From positions 248,001 through 312,000 of the forward strand of contig CATKZI010000001.1 of the NCBI GenBank assembly GCA_949841365.1: a stretch of 64,000 nt of DNA, in the 5' to 3' direction. Positions within the stretch are counted from its first letter, which is position 1; the number at the start of each line of letters is the position of its first letter. The position numbers and the translations under genes are program-made. Below the pieces are notes generated by a model. The model saw nothing but the letters and a program-made list of their open reading frames with translations. It did no database searches and had not been told where the DNA came from. The DNA is from an uncultured Candidatus Melainabacteria bacterium (GTDB lineage: Bacteria > Cyanobacteriota > Vampirovibrionia > Gastranaerophilales > Gastranaerophilaceae). Below are positions 1 through 49,929 of this stretch, piece by piece.

Positions 1-41
1 ATAAAATAATCTTTTTCATTTTAATATTATATACACAAATT

Positions 42-1721
42 TTAATTTTGCATATAGTTCTTTTGATTATTTTCATCATCCAACAAAAAATTATTCGCGT
101 TTTCTATTCCGTATTGTTCCAGTGCGAATTTGAAGCATTCTAACCAATCTATACGCTCTTCTACTTCAGGAACTTGTGCAAAAGAACGGACGACTTCAAA
201 CAACTCTTTTAAGCGAAGTTTACGCTCAAATGAGGCTTTCCTGTCACCGTAACGGTAAACATAATTGGCATTTCTGACTTCATCATCAACTTCAAGAAAA
301 CAAGTTTTCCCGTGGTCATTAACCCCGATTAACTCTCTGCCAAGCTTGAAGTATGAAATAATTTCAGCAGTTTTTTCAACCATAGGAACAATAATTTTAC
401 GGTTAATTGCATCTAAAATCATGTTCAACCGAGCTTCCTGACCGCTCACTGAGTAATTAAGCTCAGTTGCGGTACGTTCGGCAGATTGAAGGTTTCCTGC
501 CATGTTTTTGAAAATTCCGGTTGCGCTTTCAATCGTAGATTTGAAGTAATTCAAGAAATCCCAGCCGACCATTGCTTTATCAAAGCTTAAAGGCATTGGA
601 GCTGTCGGCATTAATGCTGAATCATATTCAATGATTTTGCCCGGTCTTACATCCTGTTGACCTTTAAAACATCCTTTTGGCGCAAGATAAGGAGGATTCA
701 TCATTAAAGCAAGTGCATCAATTTGTTTGTTCAAAATCGTAGATGCAAGACTGTTCAAAATCAACGCAACACGCAAAGGCGAAATACCTCTGCCTGTCTG
801 AGGTGATTCAATTATATTTGCATGGATAAACGGATTTATTACAAAGGGATTAACTTCACAGCGGATAATTTCACGTCTGCCCGCAACTGTAATTAATCTG
901 TTTTTCAACAATTTCCCGTCTGCAAGCTCAATATCTCCCCAAAATTCCAAAATCTCCAATTTATTACCGTCAATTCCATAATTTTCACTGTTTTTGTATT
1001 TTTTACCTGCCACCACTCCTTTCAAAATTTCCAATTTTCTTTCATCTAACAAATTATTTGATTTATCAGAAAACACTTCATCAAGCGTTACATAAGTTCT
1101 GTAAATTTTTGCACACTTATCCCAGTTATCGCGATTGTATTTGTCAAACACAAAATCCTCTGACTTAATATGTTTAACTTTTGCGTTGTCGTAAATCACT
1201 TTATCATCAAGAATAAAATTATTTTTATCTGGATATAATTCCTGTTCTTCTTTTGTTTTAACACGTCTTACAGACTTAATCTTTGTTTCCCAGCCGACAA
1301 AAAGCGTTGCCTCGCCCGTTTCAACAATTCCGTCAATAACTTTTTCAATCTCATCTTCAATATTCATTTGCTCAAAAGTATTTACAAGCATTGCTTTCTG
1401 TCTGTTTGCAAAACTTTGCGTCTGCGGGGTAGTTCCCGAAACATCAAACATTGCATCAGGGTGAGAATATAAATTCTCACTGATATGAGATTTTAAAGTC
1501 TGTGCAAGTTCATAAATATCGGGGAGTTCTATTCTGCTGTCCCAGCCGTTAATTTTCGGCACATCAGAGTTATAAATCGCATCTCTGATAAGTTTCATAT
1601 CCGTAAGCTGTAAACTCCTTTGATCATTAAATTTGTCGTATTTTTCAACAATACTGCTAACAAGAAATTTCTCATCAATATCTGATAGATTTTGTGTTAA
1701 ATCTTCTGCTTCAATATACAT
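42..1721 (-). CDS. Phage portal protein
   Basis: Likely the dodecameric portal through which DNA enters the capsid. The protein is about 560 residues and has the family look: an N-terminal region with conserved acidic helices, a central part with RGISPLRVALILNSLAS and MMNPPYLAPKG segments, and a helical C-terminal half (ERTATELNYSVSGQEARLN) like the portal stem and crown. I chose ATG 1721 rather than the upstream in-frame codon at 1760 because it follows AAGAAAGGGATAAAA, a good ribosome-binding site. The start overlaps the stop of the upstream acetyltransferase gene by 11 bp, so translation is probably coupled. The gene ends 41 bp from the window edge. A possible next start (ATG at 17-19, minus strand) is cut by the edge; the large terminase is expected nearby but is not seen. 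Confidence 0.8.
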   Translation of the reverse strand: MYIEAEDLTQNLSDIDEKFLVSSIVEKYDKFNDQRSLQLTDMKLIRDAIYNSDVPKINGWDSRIELPDIYELAQTLKSHISENLYSHPDAMFDVSGTTPQTQSFANRQKAMLVNTFEQMNIEDEIEKVIDGIVETGEATLFVGWETKIKSVRRVKTKEEQELYPDKNNFILDDKVIYDNAKVKHIKSEDFVFDKYNRDNWDKCAKIYRTYVTLDEVFSDKSNNLLDERKLEILKGVVAGKKYKNSENYGIDGNKLEILEFWGDIELADGKLLKNRLITVAGRREIIRCEVNPFVINPFIHANIIESPQTGRGISPLRVALILNSLASTILNKQIDALALMMNPPYLAPKGCFKGQQDVRPGKIIEYDSALMPTAPMPLSFDKAMVGWDFLNYFKSTIESATGIFKNMAGNLQSAERTATELNYSVSGQEARLNMILDAINRKIIVPMVEKTAEIISYFKLGRELIGVNDHGKTCFLEVDDEVRNANYVYRYGDRKASFERKLRLKELFEVVRSFAQVPEVEERIDWLECFKFALEQYGIENANNFLLDDENNQKNYMQN

Positions 1722-2220
1722 TTTTATCCCTTTCTTTATTTCTGCAGGAATACACTTCAATATCCTGCAATTTGTTATTTCTTAAAGTTTCACCTCTCAG
1801 TAGAGCTTCTTTTTCAAACCCAACTGATTTTAATAAAGTTTTTACCCGAAAATTTTCAGGATAAACGAGCGCCTTAATCTTTTCAAACCTGTATTTTTCA
1901 AAGCAATGTTCAAGAAAAATCCGCGCGCAAATTTTTGTGTAATCACCCCAAAAGCGTTTATCAAAACAAGTTGTAAGTTCTGCACTGTGCAGTTTTTCAT
2001 CATTGCCCCTAAAATTGTCGAGATAAACAAACCCACTCACAAAATCACCCTCGACAATTACAAAAAACAAAGAGTTGTTTATAAGATTTACAAAATAATC
2101 AAAAATCGGCAAACCGTTTTGCGCATAATCGTCATCCAAAAATTTCGAATATTTTATGTATAAAAATAAAGCCTGCTCAAAATAAGCAGGTTTCTCAAAC
2201 GGATGTAAAAATTTCGGCAT
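1711..2220 (-). CDS. GNAT-family acetyltransferase in phage block
   Basis: A 169-residue protein with a GNAT-like fold pattern: a central strand with FVIVEGDFVSGFVYLDNF, then FWGDYTKICARIFLEHCF for the acetyl-CoA helix region, and a typical C-terminal ending (ALVYPENFRVKTLLKSVGFEKEALLRGE), which in GNATs carries the late alpha-helix and 'GFEKEG' strand. The acceptor substrate is unknown. Acetyltransferases of this kind often sit near portal genes in phages of gut bacteria. It is 3 bp downstream of the next gene and overlaps the portal start, so it belongs to the same transcript. Confidence 0.7.
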   Translation of the reverse strand: MPKFLHPFEKPAYFEQALFLYIKYSKFLDDDYAQNGLPIFDYFVNLINNSLFFVIVEGDFVSGFVYLDNFRGNDEKLHSAELTTCFDKRFWGDYTKICARIFLEHCFEKYRFEKIKALVYPENFRVKTLLKSVGFEKEALLRGETLRNNKLQDIEVYSCRNKERDKNVY

Positions 2221-2223
2221 CTT

Positions 2224-2574
2224 TTAAAATTCCGCCTTTTCAAATTTCACATACGCATCATCTGTTGTAAAAGCGCTCAATTCACCTTTCAGCATGCTTT
2301 GTCTGACACTGTTTTGAAGTCCTATCAAAGCTTCTGCCTGAATACCGTTGATAAAACTTTCACATTTTGTATTTCTGTTGAAATACCTGTAAACAGAATT
2401 TTTTGAAAAAATCATCTCTCTTGGGAGCTCTTTAATCTCTGTGTAAACTTTTTTGTGCGGTTTTTGTTTTGCTTTTTCCAAATCCGCCATAAATTCTTTT
2501 TCGATTTTCATTTTAATCAAATCGTCTAAAGATGCGTTGTTCAAAAGCATCTGTTCTGCATCGTTGTTTTTCAT
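2224..2574 (-). CDS. Hypothetical phage protein, 116 aa
   Basis: I do not recognise a family. The protein is charged and mostly helical, with a Lys-rich N-terminal half and a segment SVYRYFNRNTKCESFINGIQAEAL in the middle. No signal peptide or membrane segment is seen. Translation starts at an ATG preceded by GCAGAAAGGGTAAAAAA, the end of a repeat that also occurs before other start codons here. The 3-bp gap to the acetyltransferase gene implies the same operon. Position between small terminase and portal suggests a virion-morphogenesis or connector role, but that is only inference. Confidence 0.6.
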   Translation of the reverse strand: MKNNDAEQMLLNNASLDDLIKMKIEKEFMADLEKAKQKPHKKVYTEIKELPREMIFSKNSVYRYFNRNTKCESFINGIQAEALIGLQNSVRQSMLKGELSAFTTDDAYVKFEKAEF

Positions 2575-2672
2575 TTTTTTACCCTTTCTGCCGATTTTAG
2601 TCGGACTTATTATTCTTTGGTTAGTCGCTTACGCTCCCCCTTTTACCCTTTCCGCCGATATTGGTTCGACTT
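2575..2672 (-). repeat. Tandem copies of an RBS-bearing leader repeat
   Basis: Read on the minus strand, this leader contains two related units. The first runs GTCGAACCAATATCGGCGG then AAAGGGTAAAA; the second runs GTCCGACTAAAATCGGC then AGAAAGGGTAAAAAAATG. Between them lies GGGGGAGCGTAAGCGACTAACC, related to repeats at 36544 and 63508. The AAAGGG at the end of the second unit serves as ribosome-binding site for the gene starting at 2574. Confidence 0.6.
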
Positions 2673-2700
2673 TCTATTAAACAAAATTACATAATAAAAC

Positions 2701-2733
2701 CCTCTCCCTAACCCTCTCCCTAGGAGAGGGAAC
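2701..2733. repeat. CCCTCTCC palindromic dispersed repeat
   Basis: CCCTCTCCCTAA is followed by CCCTCTCCCTAGGAGAGGG, which contains a palindrome around CTCTCCCTAGGAGAG. Repeats of this sequence type (GAGAGGGTTAGGGAGAGGG) are known as scattered elements in many bacterial genomes. Here it sits in the leader of the 2224-2574 gene, next to the RBS-bearing repeat. Confidence 0.6.
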
Positions 2734-2766
2734 AAAGTGAATATCATCAATCGTTCGTTCCCCCCT

Positions 2767-2844
2767 TTACCCTTTAGGCTTTTTCATCATATCATTTGCC
2801 TGAGCACATAATTCTTTGTACTCATTTGCACTAATTTGTGCCAT
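2767..2844 (-). CDS. Small protein, 25 aa, strong RBS
   Basis: A short open frame encoding MAQISANEYKELCAQANDMM plus KKPKG. It is preceded by AAAAAAAGGAGGTATAA directly before the ATG, a strong and well-spaced Shine-Dalgarno sequence that makes chance unlikely. The peptide is soluble and helical, with a basic tail and no membrane segment. It lies just after a terminator that ends the upstream gene. Function unknown; it could be a small phage regulator or a leader peptide. Confidence 0.5.
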   Translation of the reverse strand: MAQISANEYKELCAQANDMMKKPKG

Positions 2845-2868
2845 TTATACCTCCTTTTTTTCATTACA

Positions 2869-2896
2869 ATAAAACCGCTTTCAAAAAGCGGTTTTA
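2869..2896 (-). terminator. Intrinsic terminator
   Basis: The arms AAAACCGCTTT and AAAGCGGTTTT flank a CAA loop, with a T-rich flank on both strands. It sits about 20 bp past the stop of the 2915-3379 gene and can stop transcription in either direction. Confidence 0.8.
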
Positions 2897-2914
2897 TTAA
2901 TATAATTTTATTTA

Positions 2915-3379
2915 TTATTTCCTTGTTGTTACTGAAATTTGAAATATATCTTTATTATTTCTAAATGAACTGCCTATACCCACATCTATTTCATCATAAC
3001 GTTCATAGCCCAAGTACACACTAAATTGCATTTCATCCACATTCATACCTTCGCGAAACGGCAACGGCTCAACGGATAATATTATCTCTTTTACTTTTTC
3101 ATTAAAATATTTATTTTGATAAGTTGATATCTCCATATCCTTGATTTCGCCATCACGAGTTAAGAAAAATCTGTATGATGCACCCATGCCTCGAAGTCGA
3201 AACATCTTTTTTGCTTCCAAGGCTTCTTTCAACTTAGCGCCATAAGCTTCCATATAACCCCAATATATAGGATTGGTTTCTCTAGTAAGTTCATAACCGC
3301 ATCCATTTGGTGGTATCTCTTCACCAAACACTAACGGACAAAATATTAGACATATTAATAATAACAAAAACTTTTTCAT
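2915..3379 (-). CDS. Exported protein with TonB C-terminal-like domain
   Basis: A 154-residue protein with a clear N-terminal signal peptide (MKKFLLLLICLIFCPLVFG, cleavage probably near VFG-EE). The mature part resembles the TonB C-terminal/TonB-like fold: RFFLTRDGEIKDMEIS and a following helix (NEKVKEIILSV) then PLPFREGMN, as in free-standing TonB_C proteins. It probably acts in the envelope. It sits inside the phage block but is bounded downstream by its own terminator, so it may be an accessory (moron-like) gene rather than a virion gene. No TonB box, TM-Pro-rich linker or partner ExbBD is visible. Confidence 0.6.
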   Translation of the reverse strand: MKKFLLLLICLIFCPLVFGEEIPPNGCGYELTRETNPIYWGYMEAYGAKLKEALEAKKMFRLRGMGASYRFFLTRDGEIKDMEISTYQNKYFNEKVKEIILSVEPLPFREGMNVDEMQFSVYLGYERYDEIDVGIGSSFRNNKDIFQISVTTRK

Positions 3380-3394
3380 GAACTCATAATATAT

Positions 3395-3829
3395 CTATAT
3401 CTTACTATCGTCAAGGTTAGAAATTGTAATAATTTTTGCCTGTTTGTAATTTTCCTCGGGCTTATCCGTATAAAATCCAAGGTATTTGCAAAGACTTTCA
3501 AGAGCTTTCAAGCCGGCTGAGGTATCACGAAGTTTCTTCTTACCGGTTAAGCAACCCTCTTTATCCAAAATATCTTCTTCTTCAAGTGAAAATTCGGCAA
3601 TTTGCAATAATTTTTGTATCACATAACCCTTGTTAACACGAAGTGAAGAAATTTGAGTTTTCAATTGCAATCTGATTTCTTTTATTACATTCTCATTTGA
3701 CAAAAGTTCAGATGCTGTTGTTTTCAAATCTTTGGATTTATAACCGGCTTTTTGCGCCGAAAGCTCACCATTTAAGGTCTTTATATATTCTGTTACGAAT
3801 TTTTTCTGTTGTTGAGTTAGTTGTTTCAT
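3395..3829 (-). CDS. Phage terminase small subunit
   Basis: Recognises phage DNA and starts packaging with the large terminase. The 144-residue protein opens with LTQQQKKFVTEYIKTLNGE followed by SAQKAGYKSKDLKTTASELL, the classic N-terminal DNA-binding HTH pattern of the terminase_2 family. A central helical region (RVNKGYVIQKLLQIAEF) and a C-terminal part (TSAGLKALESLCKYLGFYTDK) match the usual layout and length. It lies 15 bp upstream of the TonB-like gene and downstream of the adaptor gene on the same strand. Confidence 0.8.
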   Translation of the reverse strand: MKQLTQQQKKFVTEYIKTLNGELSAQKAGYKSKDLKTTASELLSNENVIKEIRLQLKTQISSLRVNKGYVIQKLLQIAEFSLEEEDILDKEGCLTGKKKLRDTSAGLKALESLCKYLGFYTDKPEENYKQAKIITISNLDDSKI

Positions 3830-3941
3830 TTATGTACTTTTCTTAACAATTCTTTGTATTATTTGTATTTTCTGAAAATAAATTGTATAATAATCATGCT
3901 ATTTATATTTCGGCTAGTGTAAATCTTAACAGGAGGGGAAA

Positions 3942-4025
3942 ATGAATTTTAAACTTCCTGTTTTTTTTGCGAGCGTGCCGCTCGACCCGCCACATTGGGC
4001 ATTGTATAAATTTTACAGATTTTGA
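3942..4025 (+). CDS. Possible small ORF, 27 aa, opposite strand
   Basis: On the plus strand, AACAGGAGGGGAAAATG gives a strong ribosome-binding site and start. The 27-residue frame begins MNFKLPVFF and then runs through the dispersed GAGCGTGCCGCTC repeat, ending KFYRF. A TATAAT-like box (TTGTATAATAATC) lies about 50 bp upstream. It may be an original small gene disrupted by a repeat insertion, or a chance frame. It is the only plus-strand candidate in the phage block. Confidence 0.3.
   Translation: MNFKLPVFFASVPLDPPHWALYKFYRF
3971..4000 (+). repeat. Dispersed repeat R1, copy a
   Basis: GAGCGTGCCGCTC is a perfect inverted repeat (GAGCG-TGC-CGCTC) and is followed by GACCCGCCACATTGGG. Related copies are at 44740 (plus) and in the prepilin leader near 11522-11556 (minus). 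The GC content is far above the surroundings. Confidence 0.6.
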
Positions 4026-4087
4026 TATCGCATTTTAGATTTGATTGTGAGCGCTACCGTTTAATGCGAGCGGGAGATACGAGAAAA

Positions 4088-4726
4088 TTACCTTCGATAC
4101 ATTCTAACCGACGGCGTTTCATCAATACTCGGGCAAATTTTTGAACGCATATTTGCTAAAGCATCTTTATACATGCTCATCCAGTAACTGAAGCGAACAT
4201 GCTGAGGGTTGCCTTTCAAACGCATACATGCTCCATAAACCAGTAACGGTTCAACAAACGGCTCAGGAATAAGCGATGTATCCTCTGCATCTTCCAGCGC
4301 AAATTTTTCCTTGTTGTCAGATGATTTTGCACAATTTTTTGTATAATAAAGAACTTCTATCTTTTTCTCTTTACTAAACATTGGCAGTAAAATCTTATCA
4401 TTATACAAACTATAAGTATTTTGAGGTTGAGAATTAACAAAAAATTTCTCAAAATCTTCATAATAATCAAATTTAACCCCGTCAGCAATAAGTGCTTCTA
4501 TTCTGCCGTCAATTGTATTTTCAAGTTCGCAGGTATTTTTAGGCAGAGTTAACTCTGTTTTGCGCTGTAAAAAATTCCACCTGTCAGAATTACAAATCTC
4601 GGCATTTAATACATTGATAATATTTTTTAGTTTTTTATGATCGTTTTTGGTAAGCTCAGCAAACGCATTAACCTGTTTATAATTAAGCTCTACCAAACAT
4701 TTATTTACAAGTTCAAGATAGTTCAT
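4088..4726 (-). CDS. Phage head-tail adaptor / tail tubular A-like protein
   Basis: Probably the adaptor that joins portal to tail, like P22 gp4 or T7 gp11. The 212-residue protein starts MNYLELVNKCLVELNY, then has a long helix pair, the segment DRWNFLQRKTELTLPKNTCE, and a C-terminal helical part (VEPLLVYGACMRLKGN), the usual order for this family of podovirus adaptors. ATG 4726 was chosen over the codon at 4750 because the latter lies within the leader repeat; 4726 follows CGGAAAGGGTGAAAAGA. Family assignment rests on pattern and context only. Confidence 0.55.
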   Translation of the reverse strand: MNYLELVNKCLVELNYKQVNAFAELTKNDHKKLKNIINVLNAEICNSDRWNFLQRKTELTLPKNTCELENTIDGRIEALIADGVKFDYYEDFEKFFVNSQPQNTYSLYNDKILLPMFSKEKKIEVLYYTKNCAKSSDNKEKFALEDAEDTSLIPEPFVEPLLVYGACMRLKGNPQHVRFSYWMSMYKDALANMRSKICPSIDETPSVRMYRR

Positions 4727-4805
4727 TCTTTTCACCCTTTCCGCCGACATTGGTTCGACTTTTTATACTCCCGCCAGAGGCTAAAGCCTCCGTTTTTTAC
4801 CCTTT
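4727..4805 (-). repeat. RBS-bearing leader repeat with GAGGC palindrome
   Basis: Minus-strand order: GGAAAGGGTAAAAAA, then CGGAGGCTTTAGCCTCTGG (a hairpin repeat also at 22010 and 34949), then GTCGAACCAATGTCGGCGG and AAAGGGTGAAAAGAATG. The second AAAGGG is the ribosome-binding site of the adaptor gene. The composite looks like two stacked copies of the element before 2574. Confidence 0.6.
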
Positions 4806-4867
4806 CCACTTTCAAGAAAGAACAGCCTAAAAAGACTGCTCTTTCCCAAAAGATTTTTTAGAATTTG

Positions 4868-5464
4868 CTATTTTATAAGCCCTTTTCTCAACTGGTCCAT
4901 AATCGCACGTTCGTGCTTAGCAAATTCAGCACCACTCATTTTACCGATTTGTTCACGAGTAAAAACCAAATTTTGTGCACCGTCAGAAACTGAATTTTGT
5001 GCATTTGCACGCAATCTTTGTTTTGCGGATTCGTTTTCGCTGTTTAATGTTTTTTCGTGTTCTTGTGCTCTCAAATATTTATCGACTGCGGAATTTTCGA
5101 TTTTTTCCACTAATGCTGATATTTTTGAGATTTCATCATCATCAAAATCGACATTTGCCTGTTTCAAATAATCAAAAACATCAATTCTACCATCCTGATT
5201 AAAGAATTCAGGAGTTGGCATAACTTTCGGCTGTACCGGTTGAGGAGTTTGGACATTTTGAGCTGTGTTGTACTTTTCAAACGCCTTTTGAGTAATGTAA
5301 TTCACTAAATTGTGTCCTTGCTCTTGTGTCATAGCTCCTGTTTGTACAAGGTTTTCAATTAATTTAACATCTTGAATAACTCTCTGCTTAATGCTTTGAG
5401 CTTCATCAACAATTGCCGGATTTTGATTATCGGCTTGAGATGAAATATTTTCGATATTATTCAT
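4868..5464 (-). CDS. Phage capsid scaffolding-like protein
   Basis: A 198-residue, Gln/Glu/Asn-rich helical protein. The N-terminal part is polar (MNNIENISSQADNQNPAIV), followed by helix-forming stretches and a Pro-rich linker (TPQPVQPKVMPTPEF). The C-terminal end FTREQIGKMSGAEFAKHERA resembles the common ending of phage scaffolding proteins. ATG 5464 is chosen because GGAGGCAGAAAAAT precedes it; the longer reading frame from 5539 would run through the upstream gene. The start overlaps the upstream stop by 8 bp. Adjacent capsid gene supports the call. Confidence 0.6.
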   Translation of the reverse strand: MNNIENISSQADNQNPAIVDEAQSIKQRVIQDVKLIENLVQTGAMTQEQGHNLVNYITQKAFEKYNTAQNVQTPQPVQPKVMPTPEFFNQDGRIDVFDYLKQANVDFDDDEISKISALVEKIENSAVDKYLRAQEHEKTLNSENESAKQRLRANAQNSVSDGAQNLVFTREQIGKMSGAEFAKHERAIMDQLRKGLIK

Positions 5465-5696
5465 ATTTTTCTGCCTCCATATATTGAACCGCAAATTCCA
5501 CCGCATCATCAATAAAAGACGATAATAACAATGAAACAAGCAGTTTGAAAGGAGCAGGCACAGGAATATATTTGGTAATATATTCTACTGCCATTTTCTT
5601 CTTCTGCTGTCCTTTACAGCTTCCAAGAGTTTCCTCAGCCATAACAACAGCTGATTTTGCAAGCTCCTTTATTTTTATTCTTAAATTGTTAAGCAT
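5457..5696 (-). CDS. Small phage protein, possible LL-H-type holin
   Basis: A 79-residue protein with amphipathic helices: AVVMAEETLGSCKGQQKKKM followed by AVEYITKYIPVPAPFKLLVS and a C-terminal LLSSFIDDAVEFAVQYM. The pattern 'AEE.LG...G..KK..A..YI' followed by 'IDDAVEF' resembles the C-terminal domain of LL-H family phage holins. The N-terminal membrane helix typical of them is missing, so the role is uncertain; it could equally be a capsid accessory protein. It lies 8 bp after the capsid gene and overlaps the scaffold gene. Confidence 0.45.
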   Translation of the reverse strand: MLNNLRIKIKELAKSAVVMAEETLGSCKGQQKKKMAVEYITKYIPVPAPFKLLVSLLLSSFIDDAVEFAVQYMEAEKYE

Positions 5697-5704
5697 TTAA
5701 CCTC

Positions 5705-6598
5705 CTATGCAGTCGGTTTGCTTACGACCATTTTCGCTAACGCTTTAGGCTGAACGGTTTTTGCTCCGTATAAATACAAGCCTCTAACCAAATCAGAGAA
5801 GCTGTCTTTGTCACGCAAAGATTCAATTTTAGCTAATTGTGAAGCGAAAGTGATTGCTTCATTTGTACCTGCAAGTACATAGAATTTGCCGTCAACTGCT
5901 GTTAGGTTAGTGCTTACTAAAACGTCCATGCCTGCAATTCTGCCGATTGCGCCTTCTCTTAATGTTTCATCGGCTACATTGTGCGCACCGATAAATTCAG
6001 TACTTTGAAGCAAATATGATTCAATTGTCGGGTTAATAACTACCCATGGTCTTACTCCTGTTGATACCGCATCTGAATTTTTCAAACATAATGCAAGTTT
6101 TACAAATTGAGAGTAAATTGTAGATTTATCAAGAGAAACAGGAGTTGTATCAGAACCTACAACATTGCCTGTTGCAACATTTGCATGCATTGATAAAAGG
6201 TAAGCATCTTGAACTTCTTCAATAGCTTTTTTAGCATTTTTAAGATGAGCTTCCATAATGTCTGAGTTTGCCTGAACCTGAGCAACATCATTAATTTTGA
6301 ACGCAAAGAATTTTTTCTGGTCGATAACCAAATCCATTGAAGTCGGTTCTAATTCGCTGTAAGAAATTGAATCACTGCCCAAAGTTGAAATAGAAACTTC
6401 TGCCGGAGTAATAATTTTTACTTTATCACCCTGATTTCTAATTTCGCCTTCCCAATTTCTGTTAACACATTGAAGCATTACACATTCTTTTTCTAAAATA
6501 TTGTTTAACTTTTGGCTCCAAATTTCAGGAATAAATGCCGAATAAGCATTTGTAGATGTAGTAGTTGTTGTTGGTGTTGATGGTGTTTCGTCTGCCAT
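5705..6598 (-). CDS. Phage major capsid protein
   Basis: A 297-residue coat protein. The short Thr-rich N-terminus is followed by AYSAFIPEIWSQKLNNILEK, then NWEGEIRNQGDKVKIITPAE, a pattern common to P22-coat-like HK97-fold capsid proteins from gut phages. DLVIDQKKFFAFKINDVAQ matches the P-domain strand and helix, and the C-terminal part (MDVLVSTNLTAVDGKFYVLAGT) matches the A-domain. RBS is GAAAGGAAAAGAAAAATG. It is transcribed before, not after, the scaffold gene, which is unusual. Confidence 0.8.
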   Translation of the reverse strand: MADETPSTPTTTTTSTNAYSAFIPEIWSQKLNNILEKECVMLQCVNRNWEGEIRNQGDKVKIITPAEVSISTLGSDSISYSELEPTSMDLVIDQKKFFAFKINDVAQVQANSDIMEAHLKNAKKAIEEVQDAYLLSMHANVATGNVVGSDTTPVSLDKSTIYSQFVKLALCLKNSDAVSTGVRPWVVINPTIESYLLQSTEFIGAHNVADETLREGAIGRIAGMDVLVSTNLTAVDGKFYVLAGTNEAITFASQLAKIESLRDKDSFSDLVRGLYLYGAKTVQPKALAKMVVSKPTA

Positions 6599-6645
6599 TT
6601 TTCTTTTCCTTTCTTTTTCATTACTAAATTATATGAGTGGTGTTT

Positions 6646-8154
6646 TTAATCATCGTTATAGATTTCTCTGAATTGCAAACCTATAATCGCACAGGATTGC
6701 GTAATCCCGTCTCCCTGAATACAAAGCTGTATTGAATAATTTGATTCCGAAATTTCAGCTTTTTCCATAGTGTCCTTATTTATAGACCACACAGGAACTG
6801 ATGCATTATCAAGTGTCCAATGACAAGGCATACCCTCAGGTGTATTATCATCAGCCCAGATTAAATGTTCTTGATGAATTGAATAAATCCTTTCAATATC
6901 ATCAGAATATTCGCTGTCATAATCCTTATAAACAGAAAAATCAAAATCATTATCATATTCCGTATCCAAAAGAAAATAAAATTCATCAATCATTTTCCTG
7001 TGGTGCGGTGAAGTTATCGCCAGAAATGGAGATTTCCACATGAATTTAATCGGACTACCGTTGAAAGTTGTTCCAAAATCTTCTTTATATATCTTCCCGC
7101 TCTTGTCTGCGGTAAAAATATACCCGTCATAAACACAAGCCGTAATAATGTTTTGCGGAATTACACGTTTATACCAAGATTTATTGACGTAGTCATTTAT
7201 CCAAACAGTATTTAAATAATCATTTCCGTTATACGGGAAGAAATACCAAATCTGGTTTTTCTTTTCATAATGAAGACCTATAGCCTTCTCCAAGTTCATA
7301 AAAGATGAAAATTCTGACTTAATTTTTAAAGAAATTTCACTTCCCAACTGAATTTGATTAAGTTCTCCAACCTGTTCAAGGGCAAAAATTCCATTGCTCA
7401 AAAAATACTGTTTATTTTCAATATTGACAATTGCCCCCGAGCCGACAGCCCCTTTATCCGCAAACGGTACAATTGCGAAATCATCAGGAGATGTTCCTGT
7501 CAAAAGATACACACTGTCTTTTTTATAAACTGCAAGATAATCTTTATAAGGTTTCAATGCAGTAATTGAACCTGTATCGGTATGGAATTCGTTAATATAT
7601 CCGGCATCTCCTTCTTCGGTAAAATTATCATAAGTTCCCAGCGCCGAATAGTAAATTGTCGCATCTTTTGCAACCCATACCCTGCCTTTATAAACAGCAA
7701 ATTCACCATTGACAATGACATCACCGTTCAACTCTTTTAAATTGCAATCTACAACATCATAAGCGGCATTATTTTTTATATAAAATAAACCGTCACTTTC
7801 ACTCATTATAAGAGTACCGTTTAAGAAATTTAAAAATTTCGGAGATTTTCCCGTAAGCGTTTTATTAACTTCAGTTGTCAGACCTTTTGACTCATCATGA
7901 ATATAAACTTTTCCCGACACTGTTGTAATAACAAGTTTACACTTGTCATAAGCAGACATTTCAGAAAGTCCGGTAATTTCTTCATTGATATCCAAAAACA
8001 AAGAATTGCCATTTTGTTTGACAATTCCTCTGTTTTGAAATATTTCGACATTTTGCGAATCCGCCCAATAAACCTTTTTAGTATCAATGCCAAGTTCTGT
8101 TTTTGTCAGTGCCTGATTAATCCCGCCTGCCAGATTGTAATAAGCTGTTTCCAT
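6646..8154 (-). CDS. Phage tail hub/nozzle-like beta-propeller protein
   Basis: A 502-residue, strand-rich protein. It begins METAYYNLAGGINQALTKTE, a 'GG(I/L)N' opening typical of podovirus proteins such as tail tubular B and P22 gp10-like nozzle proteins. Repeated strand-turn-strand blades follow (KGRVWVAKDATIYYSALGTY; KPYKDYLAVYKKDSVYLLTG; VYDGYIFTADKSGKIYKED). The C-terminal part is a beta sandwich-like region. The beta-propeller call is inferred from these repeats. RBS is AAGGGGAAAATAATATG. It is 1 bp from the amidase stop, so co-translated. Confidence 0.55.
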   Translation of the reverse strand: METAYYNLAGGINQALTKTELGIDTKKVYWADSQNVEIFQNRGIVKQNGNSLFLDINEEITGLSEMSAYDKCKLVITTVSGKVYIHDESKGLTTEVNKTLTGKSPKFLNFLNGTLIMSESDGLFYIKNNAAYDVVDCNLKELNGDVIVNGEFAVYKGRVWVAKDATIYYSALGTYDNFTEEGDAGYINEFHTDTGSITALKPYKDYLAVYKKDSVYLLTGTSPDDFAIVPFADKGAVGSGAIVNIENKQYFLSNGIFALEQVGELNQIQLGSEISLKIKSEFSSFMNLEKAIGLHYEKKNQIWYFFPYNGNDYLNTVWINDYVNKSWYKRVIPQNIITACVYDGYIFTADKSGKIYKEDFGTTFNGSPIKFMWKSPFLAITSPHHRKMIDEFYFLLDTEYDNDFDFSVYKDYDSEYSDDIERIYSIHQEHLIWADDNTPEGMPCHWTLDNASVPVWSINKDTMEKAEISESNYSIQLCIQGDGITQSCAIIGLQFREIYNDD

Positions 8155-8155
8155 A

Positions 8156-8647
8156 TTATTTTCCCCTTAATTTATACCACTTAATTTTTGAACGAATAAA
8201 ACTTCCAACCTCGCCTTGAGCAACCCAAGAATAAGGCGGAATAAAGATTATATCAATTTTTCCGGCACTGGAGGTTTTAGGATTTTTTATCCCAAATTCA
8301 TAATGAGTCATTATTGTTTGCGGGGTAATTTCTATTTTATATTTTCCTGCAAGCTGTGCGCAAAGCTCCATTGTACTTTCAAATTGTTTTTTAAGTATAG
8401 GATAACTTCCGATACAATTTCGGTTCTTAAACCCTGCCATAGCACAAATAGCCACACCAATGCTTCCGGTATTTCCGCCGCCTGTGTGTGCGGCATATTT
8501 TCCAACCTTACAAACCTCGTTATCCTCAGGTTTAAATTTTCCGTTATGAACAACTCCGTCTTTATCTACTAGAAAATGATAATGCTCTTTTTCATAATCT
8601 GTAGGATAATACCCTCCCGCTGTCCAATGAATTACGATACGTTTCAT
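8156..8647 (-). CDS. N-acetylmuramoyl-L-alanine amidase (endolysin)
   Basis: Cuts the amide bond between muramic acid and L-alanine in peptidoglycan to release phage or allow entry. The 163-residue protein is a single amidase_2 domain: MKRIVIHWTAGG holds the first zinc His, HYHFLVDKDGVVHNGKF and AAHTGGGNTGSIGVAICAM follow in order, and the C-terminal MTHYEFG supplies the late His. Length is that of T7-lysozyme-like enzymes. There is no signal peptide or cell-wall-binding domain. Its start lies 56 bp inside the upstream HTH gene, with RBS AGGAATATC. Confidence 0.85.
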   Translation of the reverse strand: MKRIVIHWTAGGYYPTDYEKEHYHFLVDKDGVVHNGKFKPEDNEVCKVGKYAAHTGGGNTGSIGVAICAMAGFKNRNCIGSYPILKKQFESTMELCAQLAGKYKIEITPQTIMTHYEFGIKNPKTSSAGKIDIIFIPPYSWVAQGEVGSFIRSKIKWYKLRGK

Positions 8648-8852
8648 GATATTCCTCTAACCAATTTTTATTTAATAACTTATATATCATGACCGCGTGG
8701 GTTCTGTTTTGCGCGTGCAGTTTCAAAACAATTTTATCAATATGGTTTCTTACGGTACCATATGCAATATTCAACTTCACACCTATTTCTTTATCAGAAT
8801 AACCCAAAGCAGTCAAAGTAAGTACTTGTACTTCCTTTGGAGATAGTGCCAT
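8592..8852 (-). CDS. Stand-alone LuxR/GerE-type HTH protein
   Basis: An 86-residue protein with little beyond a GerE domain: LSPKEVQVLTLTALGYSDKE then IGVKLNIAYGTVRNHIDKIV, the typical four-helix LuxR HTH including the 'TV..H...I..KL' recognition helix. There is no receiver or sensor domain. RBS is AAAGGAATTATAGAATG. Its 3' end overlaps the amidase gene by 56 bp in another frame, so the two are coupled. It may regulate late phage genes. A second stand-alone protein of this kind is encoded at 54390-54590. Confidence 0.75.
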   Translation of the reverse strand: MALSPKEVQVLTLTALGYSDKEIGVKLNIAYGTVRNHIDKIVLKLHAQNRTHAVMIYKLLNKNWLEEYHETYRNSLDSGRVLSYRL

Positions 8853-8931
8853 TCTATAATTCCTTTTTATTTCATTTTTCTATGATAAGCATACTAAAAA
8901 ATATATAAAAATCATTCATAATATTTCCTTT

Positions 8932-8957
8932 AAAGAAAAGGGCGGATAATCCGCCCT
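8932..8957 (-). terminator. Intrinsic terminator
   Basis: On the minus strand GGGCGGATTATCCGCCC is followed by TTTTCTTT. It lies 19 bp after the stop of the 8976-9392 gene and separates it from the LuxR-amidase transcript. Confidence 0.8.
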
Positions 8958-8975
8958 CTAAAGAGTAAGATAATT

Positions 8976-9392
8976 TTAAGGATTGAGTTTTAAATCTTTA
9001 TTCTCTCTAAGCCCTATTTTCAAGGCTTTCAGATTAGAATAGCATCTTTTTTTTACACCGAATTCGTTATAATTTAAATAAAAACTTCCTGAATTAACTC
9101 TGTTATAATTAATAGGTTTTTCTTCAAATAATATAAATTTTTTTAATTTTATAAAGAATTCTCTAGCTTTTTTATTAATCTTTCTGACAACCGAAATATT
9201 ATCATCCTTATCAATCCGTGTAAGCTGAACAACTGTATGTCCGCATACAGGGCATTTAGGCAGATAATCCAATTCGCACATCAAAAAATTTTCCTGCGGA
9301 ACAAGACAAAACGACTTTGTTTTGTGTAAAGCGCCACAGCAATGAATATACCCCATATCATCCCCTGACTGTATGGTAAACGGTTTTGCCAT
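8976..9392 (-). CDS. Hypothetical Cys-rich protein, 138 aa
   Basis: I do not recognise a named family. The N-terminal half carries Cys/His pairs (HCCGALHKTKSFC, CELDYLPKCPVCGHTV) that could bind zinc; the CPVCGH knuckle is the clearest. The C-terminal half is basic and aromatic (KKLKKFILFEEKPIN, SGSFYLNYNEFGVKKRCYSN). No signal peptide or membrane helix. It is bounded by terminators on both sides and may mark the right border of the phage block. Confidence 0.55.
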   Translation of the reverse strand: MAKPFTIQSGDDMGYIHCCGALHKTKSFCLVPQENFLMCELDYLPKCPVCGHTVVQLTRIDKDDNISVVRKINKKAREFFIKLKKFILFEEKPINYNRVNSGSFYLNYNEFGVKKRCYSNLKALKIGLRENKDLKLNP

Positions 9393-9499: not shown

Positions 9500-9527
9500 T
9501 AAAAAAGCTCCCTTCAGGGAGCTTAAA
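9500..9527 (-). terminator. Intrinsic terminator of prepilin/S74 gene
   Basis: On the minus strand AAGCTCCC-TGAA-GGGAGCTT is followed by TTTTATT, starting 5 bp after the stop codon of the 9532-11619 gene. Confidence 0.85.
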
Positions 9528-9531
9528 ACTA

Positions 9532-11619
9532 TTATTTTATTTTTGCTTCAAGAGCCTTCAATCTGGCATCTAAAGCCTTATTTTGCTCTTTTAACATTTT
9601 ATTTTCTTTTTCTAACGCCGTAACTCTTGCATCAAGTTCTTTTATCGCATTGATTACAGCATAGAACATATCTTCCATACGAATAGTTAAGAAGCCGTCA
9701 GCACCTTTTTTGACTGCGTTCGGGAATACTTTTTGCAAATCCTGTGCCATAACACCAACGCGCGGAGTTTTCTTTTCATCTTTTTTGAAAGTGTAATTAA
9801 AGATTTTTAATTGACGAAGTTTTGCAAGCCCGTCAGTGTTTTCTTTACCGACATATTTCAAACGACGGTCGGAATATGTATTATACCACCCTTGTTCAGT
9901 AGAATTTATATCTGTAGGATATCCCCTCATATTATCATCGCCGCCTTTATTATCACCTTGTCGTAATACAACTAAGCCACCTCTACTATTTGCAGGACGT
10001 AAAACAGTTGCACCTTCTGAAGAATTCAAAAATACATGCTTTCCTACAACTAATTTTCCGGGAATATAAACAGTAGAATCTGCTGTTCCAAGGAATACTA
10101 TATTAGCAGAATTTGTTCCAATTGTCTGACCGGAAGAAGGTCCGGAACCTGCACCGATACAGGTTTTATTACTTCCGGATACATAATAGCAAGCACTTTT
10201 TCCAATAGCAGTATTATTTGAACCTGACCCATTGCTAAATAATGCCCATTTACCAATAGCAGTATTATTTTTACCTGTTGTATTCATATCAAGTGTAAGA
10301 TAACCGACTGCAGTATTAGCTTCACCTGTTGTGCTTCTATACAAAGCTTTATAACCGACTGCGGTATTCATATTACCTGTTGTATTCATATCAAGTGTAA
10401 GATAACCGACTGCAGTATTAGCGTCACCTGTTGTGCTTCTATACAAAGCTTTATAACCGACTGCGGTATTCATATTACCTGTTGTATTATATCCGGAAGA
10501 ATACATACCAACAGCTGTATTATATGTACCGGTTGTATTTTCTAATAATGATTCAGAACCTATAGCTGTATTACATCCGCCAGTTGTATTATTTGATAAT
10601 GTATTTGAACCAATAGCAATTAAACCTACATCATTAGCTTTACTTTTATAACCAATAGCTATACCTTCTTTAGTAGAAGCTGAAGCTTCAGAACCGATTG
10701 CTACGGAATTCTCTCCTTCTCCTGTGACACCTGCTCCTATAGCAATAGCATTATTAGCACTCCCCGATGCTCCTGAACCTATAACAACAAGATTACTCTT
10801 ATCGGATACTGCATTATTATTGGCTTCATGGCCTATGATTACGTTGTTGCTCCCTGTGGTATTGCCACTTCCGGCTCTTGTACCCAAAACGGTATTGTTA
10901 TTACCTGTTGTATTGCCTGACAATGAGGATACACCAACTGCAACATTTTGACCACCTGTTGTATTAGAAGCCAATGCACCCCAACCGATAGCTTCACTCC
11001 AGTGACCGAGAGTATTTGCACTCAAAGCATTCACACCTAAAGCGACATTATAATGACCGCTTGGTGCATTATGTTGATCTACATGAGTCATTATATTAGA
11101 ACCAATAGCTACACTGCCAAAACCTCCGTCTACATTATGACCTATAGTTATAGCTTGAATATTTTCTGTGCCAAGATTTAAACCTTCACTATTTATACGT
11201 AAATGTCCCAGAACATTATCACCGTTCTTAAATAAGAGCAAATTATCAAAATCACTATTATTAATTACCAATTTAGCATTATCGGCAGCCGCACGCTGGG
11301 TTTGACCAATATGTGCCATTTGCAAATTACCGTTGCCAAAATACGCATCCAGATTGCGACCGCCACCCTGCTGAACCCATTTCCAAGGTGAGGTTTGAAT
11401 ATTTTGATCGGCTTTCATCTTGGTAGTCATAGCTGGGGCTAAACAGGCTAGTACGATACTCATGATGAGCAAGACTACCATCATTTCAGCTAGAGTGAAA
11501 CCATCGTTAAAATTTTTCCAAAACCCAATGTGACGGGTCAAGCGGCTACGCTTGCTACGAGATGCCCCCCCCCCGAAGCTCTGTAACCATTGTGTATTAA
11601 TAGTTTTCATACGTGTCAT
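9532..11619 (-). CDS. Prepilin-like protein with beta-roll repeats and S74 chaperone
   Basis: A 695-residue surface protein with three parts. Residues 1-70 are a long type IV prepilin leader plus N-helix; DGFTLAEMMVVLLIMSIVLA is the prepilin peptidase site and hydrophobic helix. Residues about 100-520 hold many short repeats of the type NTTGxxNTAVGYxAL, as in YadA-like heads and other beta-roll adhesins. The C-terminus from Ser583 (SDRRLK) is a peptidase_S74/intramolecular chaperone domain, followed by a coiled coil (about 660-695). In phage tailspikes this domain trimerises the fibre and then cuts itself off before the Ser of S-D-x-R. A trimeric, pilus-associated adhesin is a reasonable inference. 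The leader codons contain a 10-G tract, here in frame. RBS: GGGAGTTGAAAAATG. Confidence 0.8.
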   Translation of the reverse strand: MTRMKTINTQWLQSFGGGASRSKRSRLTRHIGFWKNFNDGFTLAEMMVVLLIMSIVLACLAPAMTTKMKADQNIQTSPWKWVQQGGGRNLDAYFGNGNLQMAHIGQTQRAAADNAKLVINNSDFDNLLLFKNGDNVLGHLRINSEGLNLGTENIQAITIGHNVDGGFGSVAIGSNIMTHVDQHNAPSGHYNVALGVNALSANTLGHWSEAIGWGALASNTTGGQNVAVGVSSLSGNTTGNNNTVLGTRAGSGNTTGSNNVIIGHEANNNAVSDKSNLVVIGSGASGSANNAIAIGAGVTGEGENSVAIGSEASASTKEGIAIGYKSKANDVGLIAIGSNTLSNNTTGGCNTAIGSESLLENTTGTYNTAVGMYSSGYNTTGNMNTAVGYKALYRSTTGDANTAVGYLTLDMNTTGNMNTAVGYKALYRSTTGEANTAVGYLTLDMNTTGKNNTAIGKWALFSNGSGSNNTAIGKSACYYVSGSNKTCIGAGSGPSSGQTIGTNSANIVFLGTADSTVYIPGKLVVGKHVFLNSSEGATVLRPANSRGGLVVLRQGDNKGGDDNMRGYPTDINSTEQGWYNTYSDRRLKYVGKENTDGLAKLRQLKIFNYTFKKDEKKTPRVGVMAQDLQKVFPNAVKKGADGFLTIRMEDMFYAVINAIKELDARVTALEKENKMLKEQNKALDARLKALEAKIK
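10277..10480 (-). repeat. 102-bp tandem duplication in adhesin repeats
   Basis: Two adjacent 102-bp units (10277-10378 and 10379-10480) are almost identical and differ at about one base (GCTTCACC versus GCGTCACC). Each encodes 34 residues beginning NTTGNMNTAVGYKALYRSTT. The near-identity implies recent duplication, and copy number may vary between strains. Confidence 0.85.
11565..11574 (-). repeat. 10-nt homopolymer tract in prepilin leader
   Basis: Ten consecutive C on the plus strand, G on the coding strand, between TTC and CAT. It encodes Gly-Gly-Gly plus the first base of Ala (FGGGASRS) about 15 codons after the start of the prepilin/S74 gene. Ten bases keep the frame; 9 or 11 would shift it before the pilin signal. 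Confidence 0.9.
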
Positions 11620-11640: not shown

Positions 11641-11669
11641 ATTATAACGCTTTTGAAGTCTAATATCAA
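11641..11669 (-). promoter_or_regulatory. Sigma70-type promoter of prepilin/S74 gene
   Basis: On the minus strand TTGATA (11669-11664), a 17-bp spacer and TATAAT (11646-11641) lie about 25 bp upstream of the ATG. The -35 box overlaps the stop codon region of clpB. Confidence 0.75.
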
Positions 11670-44739: not shown

Positions 44740-44767
44740 GAGCGTGCCGCTCCACCCGCCCAATAGG
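44740..44767 (+). repeat. Dispersed repeat R1, copy c
   Basis: GAGCGTGCCGCTCCACCCGCC followed by CAATAGG, directly after the decarboxylase stop codon. Same inverted repeat as at 3971. It may act as a transcription-attenuating hairpin. Confidence 0.6.
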
Positions 44768-44834
44768 TATCTGAATAATTATCTCTTTACCTTTTATGTA
44801 ATATTTGTTATAATGAACAAAAAAGGTTGGTTAT

Positions 44835-48965: not shown

Positions 48966-49808
48966 TTACCATGGGTAGTCAGATGTAATTTGCCATCCGT
49001 CTTGCATTATCAATGCACTGCAATAATAACCGCCATATCTGTCTGTGTTATTTTTATTACAACCTTTCAAACCTGTTAACCATTCTATTGTTTCACATTC
49101 GGGAGGGTAACACCATCTGTCATTATCGTTACCTGTCAAAATATTTCGTGATAATCCGCTTCCCGAAGGTTCAAGTCTATTATTTTTAGGGTTAATTACA
49201 AATGAGAAAACATCCTTACCAACTATGTTGTTTTTAATTTTATTATCTATATCTAAAAGTAAATAAAGTCTGTTTTCGTAAATTGAAACTTTAAATACAG
49301 TTCCATTTTTTATTCTATACGGTTTACCGCTGGTATAATAAGCAAAAAAACTTTCTTTTCCGCCCAAAGACCATATTGTACCATATTCATACTGCTTAAA
49401 AGGTTTACCTCCCCCATCAATATATGGTATAATATATTTTTCTGTAATTAATTGTGATTTTTCTGACAAATCAGAAATATTCTCAAATTCAGTAATCCAA
49501 TTTAAAGTATTACCATTATCATTAACAGAACGTGTAATTAAATTTGAAAATGTACTATATTCCGATTTTAATTTATTTACTGTAACATTTTTTTGATGAT
49601 TTGCAATCAAATTTGGTATTGTGATGGCTGCCACAACTCCGATAATACCTAAAGTAATTAAAACTTCCGCAAGTGTAAAGCCCATATGCTTGTTTGCTTC
49701 GCCTCGCGTTCTACGGCACCGGTCACAATCAAAACGAAAAGCGGATTGTCGGTAGAGGGTGTTGCTGTTTTGCTGTGCAAAACACAAAAACCCGTTTAGC
49801 GCCGACAA
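48966..49808 (-). CDS. Type IV prepilin-like protein (frame-shifted start)
   Basis: A pilin/pseudopilin with HMGFTLAEVLITLGIIGVVA (peptidase site G|F and N-helix) then AITIPNLIANHQKNVTVNKL. The C-terminal domain holds Cys residues near CYPPECETIEWLTGLKGC that may pair. The frame is open upstream of 49808 to a C10 tract. A promoter, RBS (AAAGGAGTTTGAGT) and ATG at 49909 precede that tract, but with ten C they run into a TAA; with eleven C they would join this frame. As sequenced, expression would need the TTG at 49808 or the inner ATG before GFTLAEV. The leader region is built from repeat R2. Confidence 0.75.
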   Translation of the reverse strand: MSALNGFLCFAQQNSNTLYRQSAFRFDCDRCRRTRGEANKHMGFTLAEVLITLGIIGVVAAITIPNLIANHQKNVTVNKLKSEYSTFSNLITRSVNDNGNTLNWITEFENISDLSEKSQLITEKYIIPYIDGGGKPFKQYEYGTIWSLGGKESFFAYYTSGKPYRIKNGTVFKVSIYENRLYLLLDIDNKIKNNIVGKDVFSFVINPKNNRLEPSGSGLSRNILTGNDNDRWCYPPECETIEWLTGLKGCNKNNTDRYGGYYCSALIMQDGWQITSDYPW

Positions 49809-49861
49809 CCAAGCTGCGTGGTTTCCGTTTATGATTGTTCGTCTGTCGCTACGCTCCTGCC
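49741..49861 (-). repeat. Structured dispersed repeat R2, copy b
   Basis: Minus strand: GCAGGAGCGTAGCGACAG, GCTTGGTTGTCGGCG, TAAACGGG, inner hairpin GTTTTGC-ACA-GCAAAAC, CCCTCTACCGACAATCCGCT. Outer arms and flanks match copy a (46698), while the inner hairpin differs in sequence but is conserved in shape. It encodes most of the prepilin leader. Confidence 0.6.
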
Positions 49862-49873
49862 TACGCTCGGCTC

Positions 49874-49883
49874 GGGGGGGGGG
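49874..49883 (-). repeat. 10-nt homopolymer tract in second prepilin gene
   Basis: Ten consecutive G on the plus strand (C on the coding strand) between CTC and CAG. It sits 26-35 bases into the frame that starts at ATG 49909. Ten C give frame OFF (stop after about 24 codons), eleven C give frame ON. Confidence 0.9.
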
Positions 49884-49929
49884 CAGTTCAATGATACAAA
49901 TTTTAACATACTCAAACTCCTTTGTTATT

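Follow-up and report, generated by a model that had tools for sequence, protein, structure and literature searches.

A probable phase-variable minor pilin of Candidatus Gastranaerophilales combining a prepilin signal, a YadA-like beta-roll and a C-terminal S74 domain

CofB of the CFA/III pilus and TcpB of the toxin-coregulated pilus are trimeric minor pilins located at the pilus tip; both are prepilin-anchored, and their beta-rich C-terminal part forms the homotrimer (PMC9565799). Another variable surface component, PilV of IncI plasmid thin pili, is a type IV minor pilin and an adhesin (PMC9045228), and its variation results from site-specific inversion of C-terminal cassettes. The C-terminal domain of phage endosialidase, the phage neck appendage protein and the ICA domain of MYRF follow a beta-structured fibre and act as Ser-Lys self-cleaving trimerisation domains; in MYRF, cleavage needs the pair S578 and K583 (PMC3742443). 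Trimeric autotransporter adhesins, such as YadA and BpaC, carry YadA-like head repeats and a C-terminal barrel anchor. In the poly-G contingency loci of Campylobacter and Neisseria, the tract is found close to the 5' end of genes for surface proteins, with a length peak at about 9–10; 79% of the Campylobacter poly-G/C tracts are 9 or 10 long (PMC6321876).

The gene described here resembles each of these systems in part. It was found in a 64,000-nucleotide stretch (hereafter, the window) of the genome of a member of Candidatus Gastranaerophilales, and its features are listed in Table 1. While the parts are known, their combination is new, and the most surprising part is a mostly OFF repertoire of dozens of prepilin genes. 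Nothing relevant linking S74 domains to pilins or prepilins, or concerning phase variation in Gastranaerophilales, was found in the literature searched, outside of which most subscription journals lay, nor was a genome-wide phase-variable pilin repertoire like this one found there. The first-pass annotation of this DNA likewise knew of no described system with such a layout.

Table 1. Features of the S74-prepilin locus and of a second tract-controlled prepilin gene (window coordinates)
Feature	Position	Strand	Basis
S74-prepilin gene, 695 aa	9532..11619	(-)	ORF; Pfam S74, N_methyl, YadA_head
Sigma-70-like promoter, own, TTGATA-17-TATAAT	11641..11669	(-)	consensus scan, 11/12 matches
Intrinsic-terminator-like hairpin	9505..9524	(-)	
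G10 tract after the ATG and before the prepilin signal, in frame (ON)	11565..11574	(-)	sequence, tract table
Leader/signal segment, common to other tract prepilins and intergenic repeat 3969-4015	11486..11543	(-)	blastn, 79-87% identity
Prepilin cleavage site G40/FTLAE and hydrophobic N-helix (residues 40-65)	11425..11502	(-)	N_methyl, TIGR02532, predicted helix
NTTG/NTAVG beta-roll, YadA-head-like	10027..11049	(-)	AF2, Foldseek, profile to 7o23 and 1p9h
Peptidase_S74 (ICA) domain, Ser583-Asp-Arg-Arg-Leu-Lys588	9709..9873	(-)	Pfam, 52.7 bits
C-terminal coiled coil (residues 648-694)	9538..9678	(-)	predicted helix
Second tract-controlled prepilin of the window, OFF by one base	48966..49909	(-)	ATG 49909, C10 tract 49874-49883

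As the first-pass annotation had read it, a single frame encodes the prepilin signal, the YadA-head repeats, the S74 domain and the coiled coil. The C-terminal position of the S74 domain was confirmed by the HMM match (PF13884; E 5e-14, cut-off 22), which spans the whole domain (positions 1–58 of 58). The matches to N_methyl (PF07963; E 3.6e-6, 26.8 bits, cut-off 21.2), YadA_head (PF05658; E 2e-5, 25.1 bits) and the NCBIfam prepilin domain TIGR02532 were also above their cut-offs, which are the curated ones for the Pfam families. The prepilin signal is of class III, with the motif [G/A]-F-T-L-x-E followed by a hydrophobic helix, cleavage between G40 and F41, and Glu5 represented by E45; the motif is kept in relatives. 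All 37 relatives compared contain the S74 domain, and the catalytic pair Ser583/Lys588 is invariant in them; its spacing of five residues is the same as that of S578/K583 in MYRF. The residue number given for the serine in the first-pass annotation was correct.

The profile built from these 37 relatives matched solved structures of the BpaC, YadA and BoaA heads, the MYRF ICA domain and, at the N-terminus, pilins. The C-terminal part searched alone matched MYRF ICA (7dc3, E 8e-7), a phage tail fibre and the neck appendage (3gud). AlphaFold2 predicted a helix at residues 43–65, a beta-roll with pLDDT mostly of 75–94 and a long C-terminal helix, while the S74 core (in two monomer runs) and the beta strands at residues 79–150 following the N-helix were modelled with low confidence. 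Foldseek matched the beta-roll with BpaC (E 1e-5); other YadA-like heads (BoaA, YadA) gave weaker matches. An alpha/beta pilin domain was not recognisable between the helix and the beta-roll, and Pfam gave no match to the YadA_anchor barrel at the C-terminus, which is occupied by S74 and the coiled coil. The protein shares with YadA and BpaC the head repeats, by both profile and fold, but differs from them in having an N-terminal prepilin signal and no C-terminal barrel anchor. With the phage and MYRF proteins it shares what its sequence predicts to be a self-cleaving trimerisation domain placed after a beta-structured fibre, with the Ser-Lys spacing kept; unlike in those proteins, the domain is found on a prepilin-type bacterial chain and is presumably periplasmic. 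CofB and TcpB, which contain or are predicted to contain a pilin domain, have neither an S74 chaperone nor a YadA-like roll, and we know of no homopolymer switch in them.

The prepilin signal was found in 35 of 35 Gastranaerophilales S74 ORFs with a complete 5' end, a count that follows a strict rule and covers only S74 genes with a readable 5' end in related Gastranaerophilales genomes, and in none of 62 viral S74 ORFs. Since all 35 genes carry the signal and no viral one does, the fusion did not arise by chance, and a chance or misassembled fusion was rejected. Further S74 genes outside the strict rule bear the signal as well. With start sites set by Shine-Dalgarno score, the signal is in frame in all tract-less S74 genes except L092, and the possibility that almost every relative would carry it out of frame was not borne out. 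S74 genes were present in 49 of the 98 sampled genomes of the family and in 21 of 36 genera, with up to 12 per genome. The assemblies are drafts, and contig ends truncate several of the S74 genes. S74 matches were also obtained in four genomes of other families of the class; no prepilin signal was found in the stretches examined from these genomes, but in two of the four the contig ends before the gene start is reached.

Three different S74-prepilin genes are grouped in several relatives, as an overlapping tandem in L274 and L275 and close by each other in L271 and L276, with a similar arrangement in L290; the products of such groups might form hetero-oligomers or stacked tip subunits. The tract-less prepilin genes L016 and L028 contain the signal twice (FTLAE...GFTLAE), which looks like the insertion of a segment within it.

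The source genome (G000; 1.69 Mb, 99% complete) contains three S74 genes: the present one, a second next to an NAD-kinase-like gene and a third located at the end of a contig. Genes for PilB-, PilC- and secretin-like proteins, a small PilP-like ORF and PilT were identified, indicating type IV pilus (T4P) machinery. The present gene is flanked on one side by a prophage encoding terminase, portal, major head protein and amidase, and PHROG returned tail-fibre matches; it could accordingly be the tail-fibre gene of this prophage. However, the second copy and the copies in relatives sit among housekeeping genes, relatives carry S74-prepilins without any prophage, and viral S74 genes lack the prepilin signal. 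The gene also has its own promoter, located in the 46-bp gap after a Clp ATPase gene, and a terminator-like site. Prophage ownership was rejected on the housekeeping context of the other copies and these control sites, and we consider it very improbable. The prophage-like block itself (window 1-9392, C1:245540-257392, L292) is compact, about 12 kb long, ends beside the S74 gene and comprises genes for a large terminase, a head-tail connector, a major head protein, tail-like proteins and an amidase.

Taken together, the domains, the catalytic dyad, the conserved fusion and the T4P genes make a trimeric, S74-chaperoned fibre bearing a type IV pilin signal well supported at the sequence level. 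This much of the first-pass annotation stands, but its picture was incomplete: the gene belongs to a multi-copy family of the order rather than being a single-gene oddity, functional precedents exist, and neither the poly-G switch nor the approximately 39 tract-controlled prepilin genes of the genome had been noticed.

The G10 tract keeps the S74 gene in frame. G/C tracts of at least 8 bp are overrepresented in the genome, with 50 observed where 2.7–3.8 would be expected. For 39 of the 50, a prepilin signal follows downstream on the same strand at a distance of up to about 200 bp (binomial p ~1e-85). The coding strand carries G in 22 and C in 17 of these 39 tracts, and in 34 the length is exactly 10 bp, as read from one consensus sequence per species. 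Five of the 39 genes are ON; two of them are the S74 genes whose 5' end can be read, and the remaining three encode other prepilins. The other 34 are OFF, 33 of them being one base short. In the OFF genes, the peptide in the ATG frame has a median length of 17 aa, whereas the ORF after the motif is intact, with a median of 228 aa. That these silent ORFs have stayed intact would be difficult to account for if they were never expressed, and the reading of OFF prepilins as pseudogenes is disfavoured. The pilin repertoire of the genome is probably phase-variable, as judged from its sequence.

Genes for sugar modification, such as glycosyltransferases and acyltransferases, are among the usual phase-variable classes. 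Further G/C10-11 tracts in the source genome, at C1:360419, C1:361366, C4:97736, C4:110321 and C7:12349 (L055, L056, L113, L114 and L124), lie in ORFs that by eye resemble glycosyltransferases, acyltransferases and large repetitive proteins. Short dispersed repeats, some of them palindromic, were found at window positions 3969-4076, 11486-11543, 44741-44783 and 49665-49873 and in L332 and L333; in several genes they fall inside the coding leader, after the tract and before the prepilin signal, and they are also found in intergenic DNA.

The same tract design was found in other genomes of the family, with different leaders and tract lengths. In G114, 17 genes are OFF at G10 and three are ON at G11; in G006, 14 are OFF at G8 and one is ON at G9; G040 has 17 OFF and 11 ON genes with tracts of G9–G11. 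About 17 S74 genes bear a tract, eight being ON and nine OFF. The tract is absent from most S74-prepilins of other genera, so that switching would be a trait of particular lineages. In the pairs L287/L288 and L332/L333, the sequences are near identical downstream of the G tract and different upstream, as if the tract were a recombination junction.

These data bear on the alternative that the protein is a real fibre of the type IV pilin class, while G/C10 is a fixed slippery site at which -1 ribosomal frameshifting or transcriptional slippage yields a set fraction of product with no switching of the DNA. The uniform length of 34 of the 39 tracts would also fit a fixed frameshift site, and the offset of 33 tract genes, seen in G114 and G006 as well, could be corrected by a -1 shift. 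On the other hand, Campylobacter tracts peak at 9–10, which makes uniform length compatible with slipped-strand changes, and the S74 gene of the window has the correct frame with its G10 tract, without any shift. The offsets in G040 are mixed (13/11/4), and the tracts in L023, L025 and L334 are interrupted. Near-identical copies differ by one G: in G114, L199 (G11, ON) and L200 (G10, OFF) have a 197-bp leader region that is 97% identical, and the S74 pair of L285 has near-identical leaders with G10 in the ON copy and G11 in the OFF copy. Similar tracts on sugar-modification-like genes also speak against a fixed site, which we regard as unlikely. Slipped-strand switching of the tracts would make the S74-prepilins a functional parallel to PilV as variable pilin adhesins, with variation arising by tract slippage over many whole genes instead of cassette inversion. 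It would likewise place them beside the Campylobacter and Neisseria loci, from which they differ in that the tracts serve mostly one gene family, with about 39 prepilin paralogues in the one genome, nearly all OFF.

The best explanation, which we consider reasonably probable, is that the gene encodes a homotrimeric minor pilin subject to phase variation, folded with the help of S74, self-cleaved, assembled by the T4P system and switched by the tract; most likely it is an adhesin at the tip of the pilus. Translation in frame through G10 would give a preprotein that the prepilin helix retains in the inner membrane. In the periplasm, the outer part of this preprotein would adopt a trimeric beta-roll fold like that of YadA, with the C-terminal S74 domain as the template, and S74 would then cut itself off before Ser583. 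After removal of the leader behind G40 by prepilin peptidase, the trimer could be taken over by the PilB/PilC machine, which would drive it through the secretin at the tip of a pilus. Slipped-strand changes of the G tract would turn the gene off and on, and the tract would decide which cells make the protein. The gene would belong to the genome-wide set of about 39 tract-controlled prepilins, most of them OFF at any time.

Another possibility is that the prepilin helix does no more than anchor the protein in the inner membrane, or belongs to a pseudopilin, so that the trimer is periplasmic or envelope-spanning and is not displayed on a pilus. A recognisable pilin alpha/beta domain is missing, and, with about 490 residues, the beta-rich part that follows the helix is large for a subunit of the shaft. 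Nevertheless, Glu5 and the cleavage site are conserved, and a T4P machine with a secretin is present. Phase variation usually affects surface-exposed structures, which also favours display. Moreover, the trimeric bulky pilins CofB and TcpB sit at the tip (PMC9565799). Confinement to the envelope therefore seems improbable to us, and a phase-variable tip pilin is preferred.

More tentatively, and with rather less confidence than for the single protein, these genes may represent a new class of type IV pilins: trimeric tip adhesins with a self-cleaving phage-type chaperone as assembly template and three prepilin-helix anchors, which in some lineages belong to a mostly OFF repertoire of dozens of poly-G/C-controlled pilin genes with few members shown per cell. 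If true, type IV pilin secretion, a YadA-type shaft and a phage S74 trimeriser would be joined in one chain, and the use of S74 would be extended to pilus biogenesis. A large phase-variable pilin repertoire would then exist in mostly uncultured gut bacteria and would give a gut commensal a tract-based equivalent of antigenic variation. The finding offers a concrete way of testing how members of the Gastranaerophilales change their surface in the gut.
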